A stretch of 64,000 bases of DNA. It comes from Acetobacteraceae bacterium. Lineage in GTDB: Bacteria; Pseudomonadota; Alphaproteobacteria; Acetobacterales; Acetobacteraceae. Shown here piece by piece: positions 42,425 to 48,131 of this stretch. The notes under the pieces are model-generated. The model saw only the letters and a program-made list of their open reading frames with translations. It was not told where the DNA came from and did not search any database. The position numbers and the translations under genes are program-made. Positions within the stretch are counted from its first letter, which is position 1, and every line of letters starts with the position of its first letter. Location: NCBI GenBank assembly GCA_004843165.1, contig CP039459.1, positions 186,001 to 250,000 on the forward strand. Direction: 5' to 3'.

Positions 42425-42457
42425 TTTCTTTTCTGCACTGCTTTGAACGGTTCTTTT

Positions 42458-43042
42458 ATGACAGCTCCATTGATGCCCAAAGCCACAGCCGTATGGTTAG
42501 TTGAAAAAACGGCTCTGACTTTTGAACAGATTGCTGATTTCTGCGGAATGCATCCGCTTGAAGTGCAGGCTATTGCAGACGGAGAAGTCGGCAAAGGCAT
42601 TAACGGGTATGATCCCGTTAAAAACCGTCAGCTTCCGGCAGGTGAAATTCAACGCTGTGAGGCTGATACGACAGCCCGTCTCAAAAAAATTGAGCCGGAT
42701 AATCCTGTTGTCCGTCGGACTAAAGGCGCACGCTATACACCTTTAGCACGTCGTCATGATCGTCCCGATGCAATTGCCTTTTTGCTGAAACAATATCCTC
42801 ATATGGAGGATAAGCAGATTGTGAAATTATTAGGCACAACCAAGGATACGATTGATAAAATCCGTACACGCCAACATTGGAATACGCCTAATATTAAGCC
42901 TAGAGACCCTGTTATTATGGGACTATGTACCCAGATGGATCTTAATGCCGCGATCAATCTTGCCAATGAAAAAGCCGCTCAAAAAGGGCAGCTGGATCAG
43001 CAAAATGAAATCATTGATGAATTAAAGAATTTTGGCCTCTGA
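42458..43042 (+). CDS. trcR: DUF1013 cell-cycle regulator, TrcR-like
   Basis: A 194-residue DUF1013 protein, an alphaproteobacterial family whose Caulobacter member TrcR is described as a cell-cycle transcriptional regulator that associates with RNA polymerase. It starts MTAPLMPKATAVWLVEKTAL and includes FEQIADFCGMHPLEVQAIAD, a helix-turn-helix-like segment, then GINGYDPVKNRQL and RPDAIAFLLKQYPHMEDKQI. I chose ATG 42458 over a TTG five codons earlier. It follows rpmE by 33 bp. Confidence 0.88.
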   Translation: MTAPLMPKATAVWLVEKTALTFEQIADFCGMHPLEVQAIADGEVGKGINGYDPVKNRQLPAGEIQRCEADTTARLKKIEPDNPVVRRTKGARYTPLARRHDRPDAIAFLLKQYPHMEDKQIVKLLGTTKDTIDKIRTRQHWNTPNIKPRDPVIMGLCTQMDLNAAINLANEKAAQKGQLDQQNEIIDELKNFGL

Positions 43043-43143
43043 GACATTATTCTTTAAATTCAAAAATAATTGAGTCTTTCCCTATTTATGGGGAAAGATG
43101 AAATTATTTTAAGGACTCCCCTTTTCTAAAAAGGAAACATCTT

Positions 43144-45330
43144 ATTCTTCCCTCTGATCCAGCGTGCTATTTAGACAGACTCAATCCTGAGCAAAGGGCC
43201 GCCGTTGAACAGACTGAAGGTTCCCTTCTTATTTTAGCGGGTGCAGGTACCGGAAAAACCAGCGTTTTAACGACACGTTTTGCACATCTTCTTTTAAGTG
43301 GCAAAGCCTACCCTTCCCAAATTCTTGCTGTGACTTTTACCAATAAGGCCGCACGTGAAATGCGTGAACGTATCGGTAAAATTCTTGACCGTCCTGTAGA
43401 GGGGCTTTGGCTCGGCACATTTCACTCTCTTTGCGTTCGTATGTTGAGACAACATGCCCCCCTTGTTGGGCTAGAACGTGATTTCCTCATTTTAGACAGT
43501 GACGATCAGATTCGGCTGATTAAACAGCTCATGGCCGATCTGGGGATGAATCCTAAAGTGCTTGCGCCGCAAAAGGCTCTGAATGAAATTCAGCTCTGGA
43601 AAGACAAAGCGCTTACCTACCGTAAATTACGTGCAACAGATGAAGTCAAAGTTGGTGAACATACGCTTTCTGCGCTTTATCAACGTTACCAAGAGCGTTT
43701 AATTGCCTTAAATGCCTGTGATTTTGGCGATCTCATGCTACATATTACAGAAATTTTTATTAAATATCCTGATATTTTGGCTGAGTATCAAAAACGTTTT
43801 CGCTATATTATGGTGGATGAATATCAAGATACAAATGCGATTCAGTATCTTTGGCTTCGTCTTCTCTCCCGAAGAGACGATAAAACGCAGCCGAATATTG
43901 CCTGTGTCGGAGATGATGACCAGTCCATCTATTCTTGGCGTGGCGCAGATGTCACCAATATTCTACGTTTTCAAAAAGATTTTCCGGGCGCAAATATTAT
44001 CCGCTTGGAAAGAAATTACCGATCAACCCCAACGATCTTAAGTGCAGCCTCCGGGTTAATTTCCCATAACCAAGGCCGCCTTGGAAAAGAACTTTGCTCT
44101 GGATTGCCTCAGCAAGAAAAAAAAGATGATTTAATCAAAATCATTTCTGCAGAAGATTCAAATCAAGAGGCAGATCTCATTGCCGAAGATATTTTAAAAG
44201 CGCACCGAAAAAAAACCTCTTTTCGAGAAATGGCGCTCCTGATCCGTGCAAGCTTTCAGGCACGATCTTTTGAGGATTCTTTTATCCGCCAAAATATTCC
44301 CTATCGTATCATTAGCGGTCAGGGATTTTACGAACGTGCCGAAATTCGTGATTGCATTGCCTATATCCGCACCCTTGTTCAACCTGCAGACGATCTCGCC
44401 TTTGAACGGATTATCAATCTACCCCGTAGAGGAATGGGCAATGTTGCTGTTGGAAAATTACGTCTAGAAGCGCAGGAACAACAGATTTCTTTGCAAAATG
44501 CACTTGCGGCGCAATATCAAAATGGCCTCTTAAAAGGGAAAAAAGGTCTCCCGCTCATTGCGTTCATCGAAATGATGGACGAAGGACGCAATCGCCTCGA
44601 AAATGATACACATGGCGAAGTCATCCAATGGCTTTTGGAAGCCAGTGGCTATATTGATTATTGGAAAACGCAAACAACACCTGATGTCCAGGGAAGATTA
44701 GACAATATCCAAGAGCTTTTGCGAGCGATTGAAGAGTTCCCTTCTCTCAATGATTTTTTAGAACATATTGCCCTTGTCATGGACGTTGATGCGCTCAAAG
44801 CCGAAGATGAATATGTCAGCATTATGACCATTCATGCGGCAAAAGGTCTAGAGTTTGATCTCGTCTTTTTACCCGGCTGGGAGGAAGGGATTTTTCCTTC
44901 TCAGCGTTCGCTAGATGAGAGAGGCACAGAAGCGCTTGAAGAAGAAAGGCGCCTTGCCTATGTAGCGCTCACACGGGCACGAAAAACAGCGATTGTTACT
45001 CATGCTGCCAGACGGCGAGTCTACGGGACATGGCAGGATTGTATCCCTTCACGTTTTGTTCGGGAGATCCCGATTGATTTTACAACGAGCGTGACACCGA
45101 AAGAAAATGCTTATGGCTTTCAATCCGCACGCTCACAAAATAAATCTTTCTTTTTCCGCCCAGCATCAACATCTACAGAAGCACAAACAACTTTTAAAAT
45201 TGGTATGGATGTTTCTCACCGTAAATTTGGTGAGGGTGTGATCGTCGAAGCCAACGGCAATCAATTAACAATCACTTTTGATGATGGCCAAACACGCTGC
45301 CTCATGGCTGATTACGTGACCTTAAAATAA
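43144..45330 (+). CDS. uvrD: UvrD/PcrA-type DNA helicase, apparent ATT start
   Basis: A superfamily 1 helicase of 728 residues for excision and mismatch repair. Walker A is LAGAGTGKTSV and the N-terminal Q motif region is LDRLNPEQRAAVE. Both lie upstream of the first GTG (43330) in the same frame. After an in-frame TGA at 43099 no ATG, GTG or TTG occurs before them. ATT at 43144 follows AAGGA by 8 nt and yields MLPSDPACYLDRLNPEQ, a normal UvrD N-terminus. Later motifs are TFTNKAAREM, VDEYQDTN, GDDDQSIYSWRGAD, LERNYRS, TIHAAKGLEFD and EEERRLAYVALTRA. The start codon is the oddity; the gene is otherwise intact. Confidence 0.9.
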   Translation: MLPSDPACYLDRLNPEQRAAVEQTEGSLLILAGAGTGKTSVLTTRFAHLLLSGKAYPSQILAVTFTNKAAREMRERIGKILDRPVEGLWLGTFHSLCVRMLRQHAPLVGLERDFLILDSDDQIRLIKQLMADLGMNPKVLAPQKALNEIQLWKDKALTYRKLRATDEVKVGEHTLSALYQRYQERLIALNACDFGDLMLHITEIFIKYPDILAEYQKRFRYIMVDEYQDTNAIQYLWLRLLSRRDDKTQPNIACVGDDDQSIYSWRGADVTNILRFQKDFPGANIIRLERNYRSTPTILSAASGLISHNQGRLGKELCSGLPQQEKKDDLIKIISAEDSNQEADLIAEDILKAHRKKTSFREMALLIRASFQARSFEDSFIRQNIPYRIISGQGFYERAEIRDCIAYIRTLVQPADDLAFERIINLPRRGMGNVAVGKLRLEAQEQQISLQNALAAQYQNGLLKGKKGLPLIAFIEMMDEGRNRLENDTHGEVIQWLLEASGYIDYWKTQTTPDVQGRLDNIQELLRAIEEFPSLNDFLEHIALVMDVDALKAEDEYVSIMTIHAAKGLEFDLVFLPGWEEGIFPSQRSLDERGTEALEEERRLAYVALTRARKTAIVTHAARRRVYGTWQDCIPSRFVREIPIDFTTSVTPKENAYGFQSARSQNKSFFFRPASTSTEAQTTFKIGMDVSHRKFGEGVIVEANGNQLTITFDDGQTRCLMADYVTLK

Positions 45331-46334: not shown

Positions 46335-48131
46335 TTGAATGAATGGGAATTTGAAATTCCCTTCTATCAGCGCTCTTATGCGTGGGGTTTAAAACAGCTT
46401 CAAAATTTCCGTGAAGATCTAGAAAATCAAATTGAGGCCAATCTCGATGATCCTTATTTTTATGGTGCCATTCTCTACGCACCGCAAAAACCAAAATCAG
46501 AAGGTTTTCGACAAACCACTTCCGATATTATTGATGGGCAGCAACGCTTAACAACGGCAATGCTCTTTTTTGCTTCAGCTCATCTTCTGCTGAAAGCGGA
46601 ATACCCTAAAAACGCAGAAATCCTAGAGAAAATTTTAACAACCGAAAACCATAATCCCCGTTTAAGACTTCAAAAACCTTTTGGTATTGCCGCAGAGCAA
46701 ACAGACGATGCTTTTTTTCAGAGATTGATTACTAACGGAAAAATGCCAAAAGCAGACACACCAGCTAAAAAAAATTTAGAACAAGCAAAAAAATATTTTA
46801 ATCAATGGCTCGGGGCGATTGAAGATAAAACAAGAATCCAAAAACTCACCAATGCGCTTTTAAAGGCTGAAATTTGGCCGCATTGCATTCCATCCAAAGA
46901 ATCCGCTGCACGTATTTTTGAACTCCAAAATGACCGTGGCAAAGGATTGACGGAATTAGAGAAATTAAAAGCCTCCCTCATGCGAATGGCCTATATGAAA
47001 GGCGACGAAAACTCAAAAAAAATCATTGATCAAATTTATAAAAATTTTGCAGAAATCAATCTTCTGCTAGAAGAAATCACTGCTGAAACAGATGGGCTTG
47101 AAGAAGATGCCATTCTTTCACATTTCCTCATCGGTTATAAAAATGATCTAACCGCTGATGAGGACGGTCATCTTTTACCTAAAGAATATGAAAAGAACCG
47201 TTCTAAATACTGGCAACATATCCAGCACGCCATTCGTTATCATTTCAAAAATCTTAAACAAAATGGCAAAGATGTTCTTGAAGGCATAACACATTTTAAC
47301 AAAGAATTACGTCAAGCTTATGTCGCCTGTCGTGATATTTTAAAGTATCGCAAAGAAAATGATGATCTAGCTTGCCATTTTATTGCCCAAAAAAAACTTT
47401 ATTATTTTTGGCCTCTCTTTCTGAAAATTCAACGCTTAGATGGTTTTGAAGCTTTAAAAACAGTTACGCAGGCCAGTGCAGAATTAAATATTGCCTTTAT
47501 CCATACACCGAAAAGCAATACAGGTGAGGCAGAACTGCGCACGCATGCCTTTAAATATGAAAAAGGACATGCAGAACAGTGTGCAAATAAATTAAGAAAA
47601 TATAAGGAAAACTTTTCCGATCAACTGCAAAACGCCTTAACAAGTGAAACATTCTATCAAGAGAATAAACCTGCTGGTTACTATATTCTTTGGCGCTATG
47701 AAAATTACTTGCGACGACAAAATGGCGGCAATCTTGCCCGTATCGAATGGGTAAATTTTAATTCTGATGCAAAGCGAGGGGGAAAATTCACCCTAGATCA
47801 TATTATTTCCCAAAACCCAAAGGATGCTGCTGAAAAATCGTGGTTAAATAAAAAAATCGGCGAAGATGATAACGGTGATCCTATCAGGAATGAATATAAA
47901 CACCTGCATCGTTTTGGAAATCTTGCAATTGTAAGGCATAGCATCAATGCAAAATATGGTAATGAAGCTGCACTAACAAAAATTTCAGATAAAAAGATGG
48001 GGTTTCGGGAATTTATTTCCTATTACAAACTTGATGAATTTATTGAAAATGACAAATGGCAGGCAAAAGCCATTAATAACCGAGAAAAGGCCTTAATTGA
48101 TTTTGTGTGGGAGGAACTCTTTCGAGGCTAA
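46335..48131 (+). CDS. DUF262/HNH (DUF1524) GmrSD-like protein, 5' end out of frame
   Basis: A 598-residue protein with the architecture of GmrSD-like type IV restriction enzymes, which cut modified phage DNA. The N-terminal DUF262 part shows FEIPFYQRSYAWG and the nucleotide-binding DIIDGQQRLTTAM (about residues 60-75). The C-terminal part holds FTLDHIISQNPKDAAEKSW and HRFGNLAIVRHSINAKYG, the His-based HNH/DUF1524 site. The TTG start used here (GGAG 6 nt upstream) omits the first DUF262 helix, which is encoded just upstream (KRWTLEQLLNEWE). The best ATG, 46286, is out of frame; see the repeat entry. The gene stands alone between prmA and pepP. Confidence 0.8.
   Translation: MNEWEFEIPFYQRSYAWGLKQLQNFREDLENQIEANLDDPYFYGAILYAPQKPKSEGFRQTTSDIIDGQQRLTTAMLFFASAHLLLKAEYPKNAEILEKILTTENHNPRLRLQKPFGIAAEQTDDAFFQRLITNGKMPKADTPAKKNLEQAKKYFNQWLGAIEDKTRIQKLTNALLKAEIWPHCIPSKESAARIFELQNDRGKGLTELEKLKASLMRMAYMKGDENSKKIIDQIYKNFAEINLLLEEITAETDGLEEDAILSHFLIGYKNDLTADEDGHLLPKEYEKNRSKYWQHIQHAIRYHFKNLKQNGKDVLEGITHFNKELRQAYVACRDILKYRKENDDLACHFIAQKKLYYFWPLFLKIQRLDGFEALKTVTQASAELNIAFIHTPKSNTGEAELRTHAFKYEKGHAEQCANKLRKYKENFSDQLQNALTSETFYQENKPAGYYILWRYENYLRRQNGGNLARIEWVNFNSDAKRGGKFTLDHIISQNPKDAAEKSWLNKKIGEDDNGDPIRNEYKHLHRFGNLAIVRHSINAKYGNEAALTKISDKKMGFREFISYYKLDEFIENDKWQAKAINNREKALIDFVWEELFRG

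Follow-up and report, generated by a model that had tools for sequence, protein, structure and literature searches.

A uvrD helicase gene without a standard start codon in an ant-gut Acetobacteraceae genus, and its probable initiation at ATT

The window analysed here is a stretch of 64,000 nucleotides from the genome of an Acetobacteraceae bacterium, strain 880 (contig CP039459.1, positions 186,001 to 250,000). It contains, directly behind trcR, a long reading frame for a helicase (Table 1). The domains are those of a UvrD/PcrA protein of superfamily SF1A (Pfam UvrD-helicase PF00580, 1.9e-88; PF13361, 2.7e-65), and the closest solved structure is that of PcrA (1pjr, 7.2e-153). The best NCBIfam match is pcrA (3.2e-229), which at 763 of 911 bits falls below the curated equivalog cut-off, while the uvrD model, at 668 of 1144 bits, also misses its own. 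The helicase is assigned at the level of the UvrD/PcrA family, with the sub-type left unclaimed, and is called uvrD below. It is single-copy in the 1,923,586 bases of genome searched, the only other match being a weak one within a 1208-aa frame, so that a second copy of uvrD can be rejected.

Table 1. Positions in the window of the features discussed (SD, Shine-Dalgarno)
Feature	Position	Strand	Remarks
Upstream gene trcR	42443..43042	+	
Long, conserved trcR-uvrD intergenic hairpin	43063..43110	+	Tandem GA mismatch; T-rich 3' side
Short ORF	43088..43129	+	MGKDEIILRTPLF-stop (congener MGKDEIILRPF-stop); ends in loop of SD hairpin; lacks its own SD
Out-of-frame mini-ORF	43098..43112	+	ATG AAA TTA TTT TAA; a +1 slip at UUU-U leads into the uvrD frame with no stop
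In-frame TGA closing the uvrD frame upstream	43099..43101	+	Also in congener
Small hairpin over the SD	43120..43134	+	CCUUUU-CUA-AAAAGG; weak, -3 to -4 kcal/mol
SD-like AAGGA	43131..43135	+	8 nt from ATT (congener 7 nt)
Proposed ATT initiation codon	43144..43146	+	ATT in congener too
uvrD/pcrA helicase frame, proposed ATT to TAA stop	43144..45330	+	728 aa
Walker A, AGAGTGKT	43237..43260	+	5' of first standard start
First ATG/GTG/TTG in the frame (GTG)	43330..43332	+	666-aa protein without Walker A; no SD, +1.9 kcal/mol

The frame is open from 43102 to 45330, and its first ATG, GTG or TTG is the GTG at 43330, downstream of the Walker A motif. Both this observation and the layout of TGA, AAGGA, 8-nt spacer and ATT had been pointed out in a sequence-only reading of the same DNA, and both proved exact. 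An extension of uvrD 5' through the TGA was rejected, the frame upstream of it being short, different between species and interrupted by a stop. The frame thus holds no ATG, GTG or TTG able to start the conserved protein.

Comparison within the genus was made between two species, the window genome and a single congener, strain 868 (main contig of 2,107,276 bases). Both are ant-gut isolates from Camponotus, obtained in pure culture, with closed PacBio genomes sequenced to 571x for strain 880 and 386x for strain 868 (PMC6558740). The two UvrD proteins are about 82% identical. The congener has no standard start either, across the 43 codons from its in-frame TGA to the Walker A motif.

That this N-terminal part of the protein is nevertheless translated is clear from the pattern of substitution. 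Over the 54 codons from 43168 to 43329, pN is 0.017 and pS 0.583, giving a dN/dS of 0.015, and third codon positions account for 23 of the 26 differences. For the remainder of the gene (43330-45327) dN/dS is 0.06. The codons from 43168 onwards are therefore under strong purifying selection upstream of any standard start, and initiation has to occur at or before 43168. The stretch 43111-43143, which precedes the ATT, lacks a coding-like pattern, with a dN/dS of 0.80 and differences of 6, 3 and 2 at the three codon positions, figures that derive from only nine compared codons. The eight codons that follow the ATT (43144-43167) are likewise unconserved, and because of this the comparison places the start no more precisely than at or before 43168.

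Within this interval, the candidate that fits best is the ATT at 43144, and translation of the only uvrD of the genus probably starts there. Only three one-mismatch relatives of ATG lie in frame between the TGA and 43168 in the window, namely AAG 43111, AGG 43132 and this ATT. It is situated 12 codons before the LNPEQ motif, where the likely starts in Acetobacteraceae relatives lie about 7 to 20 codons before it. In the congener, the aligned position reads ATT CTT, again with a correctly spaced AAGGA, here 7 nt upstream. The duplex of AAGGA with the ribosome is calculated at -6.2 kcal/mol in both strains, using the textbook anti-SD sequence. This sequence was assumed for the present host, since the 3' end of its 16S rRNA could not be read from the assembly: it was not found with two patterns or with RF00177, although PMC6558740 lists 15 rRNA genes. 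Neither assembly of the genus gave a 16S rRNA match, and these stretches are probably masked.

It should be said that an SD energy of -6.2 kcal/mol is reached by about 5% of random positions, and that an ATT, ATC, ATA or CTG with a comparable SD arises in 25% of dinucleotide shuffles of the region. For this reason the absence of a standard start is the solid part of the result and the choice of ATT the weaker part; the SD being insufficient by itself, the case is made by elimination, by position and by conservation. With only two species compared, the identity of a single ATT codon is itself weak evidence. The ATT proposed in the sequence-only reading is still the best candidate. The relative with ATG at the corresponding position, for which that reading had hoped, was not found, the sole congener having ATT.

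Initiation at ATT 43144 would be guided by the AAGGA located 7-8 nt upstream, and the codon would presumably be read as fMet by the initiator tRNA, giving predicted N-termini of MLPSDPACYLDR in strain 880 and MLLSDNTAYLDK in strain 868. It may be used at a fraction of the efficiency of AUG, with IF3, whose gene is present in the genome, discriminating against it. Such a weak start could keep UvrD low.

The leader contains further structures that suggest other routes into the frame. The long hairpin downstream of trcR has a predicted energy of -22 kcal/mol (z -5.3; congener -20.6). The two species share both of its arms without a single difference (blocks of 18 and 29 nt), and its loop differs by 8 nt; the synonymous sites of the same two species differ by about 0.6. 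The hairpin scores as a terminator and is the probable terminator of trcR. It is worth adding that this hairpin, with its tandem GA/GA mismatch, seems to be kept beyond the needs of a plain terminator. Its right arm is not repeated elsewhere in the genome, and an Rfam search gave only sub-threshold matches, far below the gathering scores. The small hairpin over the SD has a counterpart in the congener (CCUUUU-3 nt-AAAAGG) despite a 6-nt deletion, a comparison of two sequences only.

The main alternative to ATT initiation uses the mini-ORF in the stem of the long hairpin. Translation might start at ATG 43098 and enter uvrD by a +1 frameshift (ATG AAA TTA TTT|T AAG), the tRNA-Phe moving by one base from UUU onto the overlapping UUU at the UAA stop, to give a protein beginning MKLFKDSPFLKRKHLILPSD. 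This would resemble the programmed +1 frameshift of prfB in that the slip occurs at an early stop and the shifted frame is open in both species, here through into uvrD with a net in-frame deletion of 6 nt. Neither the slip site nor the stop differs between the two species, both falling within the 29-nt block of full identity, and the ATG is closely preceded by a GGGGA with an SD energy of -5.5. However, a stem of -20 kcal/mol encloses this ATG together with its SD, which is spaced just 3 nt from it. The identity at the slip site extends over the left hairpin arm as well, and is accounted for because conservation of the hairpin explains the block. UAA is normally an efficient stop. Unlike prfB, the site has no UGA and no SD located 3 nt before it: the slip codon TTT 43107 is preceded by ATGAAATTA, and the nearest SD-like sequence, GGGGA, ends at 43094, 12 nt away. 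Beyond the slip, the nine codons compared in 43111-43143 do not show substitutions of the coding type, as described above. We consider this reading unlikely. To our knowledge UvrD has no sensor role of the kind seen with prfB, and we know of no DNA-repair helicase that is controlled by +1 programmed frameshifting; expression of uvrD in this way would be from a mini-ORF of four codons in a conserved hairpin stem.

The short ORF starting at 43088 offers a second route, either through a -1 slip into uvrD close to the stop of the ORF or by coupling to the ATT through opening of the SD hairpin. The ORF, with its stop in the hairpin loop, is present in both species despite the 6-nt indel, but these are two species only; the ORF has no SD (-2.2 kcal/mol), its start sits in a stem-loop, and neither species has a good heptamer at the slip site. 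This route is very unlikely. Even less probable is initiation at another near-cognate codon upstream of the ATT, for which AAG 43111 and AGG 43132 are the sole other candidates before 43168 in the window frame. A codon whose second base is A or G makes a very poor start, the AGG overlaps the SD, and the stretch in which both are found is not coding-like.

A sequencing or assembly error could in principle hide a normal start, since one base is enough to restore one to the uvrD frame, for example if an extra T in TTTT were removed and ATG 43098 brought into frame; PacBio consensus errors are indeed usually homopolymer indels. The two closed assemblies were, however, made independently, and both have the same TTTT and the same absence of a start in a setting of diverged sequence. 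An artefact would have to be shared by both, which makes it very unlikely, and their depth (386x and 571x; PMC6558740) also speaks against it. The indel or misread base that the sequence-only reading had named as its refutation is thus practically excluded. Finally, a start at GTG 43330, the earliest codon acceptable to a gene finder, or a pseudogene with an untranslated 5' part, is rejected on the dN/dS of 0.015 over the 54 codons upstream with Walker A intact, and on the missing SD, the dN/dS of 0.06 in the remaining gene and the single copy.

To see how unusual the ATT 43144 arrangement is, uvrD was compared with other loci and with its neighbours. Standard starts precede Walker A in all the other uvrD loci that were scored, from Acetobacteraceae and from further Alphaproteobacteria; a differing spelling of the motif kept four distant loci out of the scoring, and one locus is truncated by the end of its contig. 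When 61 homologous gene pairs were compared between the window and the corresponding syntenic stretch of the congener, uvrD was the sole strong outlier: in both strains 74 aligned codons precede the first standard start, against 15, 12, 9 and 8 for the pairs that follow. The order uvrD-prmA is widespread and is kept in most of the Acetobacteraceae examined, whereas none of the loci examined outside this genus has trcR next to uvrD, a distribution which suggests that the 5' end of uvrD was remodelled by a rearrangement. Fast 16S evolution and an AT bias have been reported for the lineage (PMC4939635). The placing of uvrD behind trcR may have cost the gene its usual start, in a lineage of ant-gut bacteria that is AT-rich and evolves fast.

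In the same neighbourhood, the interval from prmA to the following conserved gene holds a large ORF (46335-48131) with the motif IIDGQQRLTT, by eye of the DUF262/GmrSD type; no syntenic homologue of it was found in the congener region.

Among known non-canonical starts, a close parallel to uvrD is infC of E. coli, which starts at AUU and is autoregulated through IF3. Like uvrD here, it is a conserved gene that lacks a standard start and has an ATT with an SD instead. It differs in that infC encodes the very factor that proofreads starts, which makes the feedback obvious, whereas we know of no role of UvrD in initiation. A second AUU start in E. coli is that of pcnB (Binns and Masters 2002, as cited in PMC13009471). 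As proposed for uvrD, an AUU start limits the level of pcnB, which likewise has no part in translation initiation, though it is a different gene in a different bacterial class; the PF01743 gene of the present genus (polyA polymerase/CCA-type) has standard starts available. In S. aureus, cvfC1 starts at AUU, and ccpN and citZ at AUA, and AUU/AUA starts there give about 10% of the expression of AUG (PMC13009471). The sequence-only reading had described AUU starts as very rare and known mainly from infC and pcnB of E. coli, which draws their range somewhat too narrowly, as cvfC1 shows (PMC13009471). These S. aureus genes share with uvrD a non-canonical start with an SD, but they have extended SDs and proof from ribosome profiling or reporters, whereas uvrD has a moderate SD and a case built from sequence comparison. 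By analogy with infC, pcnB, cvfC1, ccpN and citZ, translation of uvrD would be weak and IF3-sensitive. The start might have a regulatory role; it may equally well reflect simple drift, the genome being AT-rich and reduced.

On the comparison presented here, uvrD would be a conserved addition to the AUU-start genes, which are few, and to which gene finders are blind. A standard caller would in this case strip the Walker A motif from a conserved DNA-repair helicase. The question is also raised whether UvrD is held low by its start codon, with effects on mutation or nucleotide excision repair.

The infC gene of the genus is of interest in the same respect (G000:C1:1495686-1496186, L117, and G001:C1:1310226-1310723, L116, both on the minus strand), and infC and uvrD in one genus would allow a clean comparison of such starts. 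The infC of strain 868 has no ATG, GTG or TTG at all, and that of strain 880 has one far-upstream TTG, which is absent from 868. To judge from the two sequences, infC in this genus probably starts at an ATA, which in both strains stands in the context GAGGA-7 nt-ATA GCA CGA, or else at CTG.
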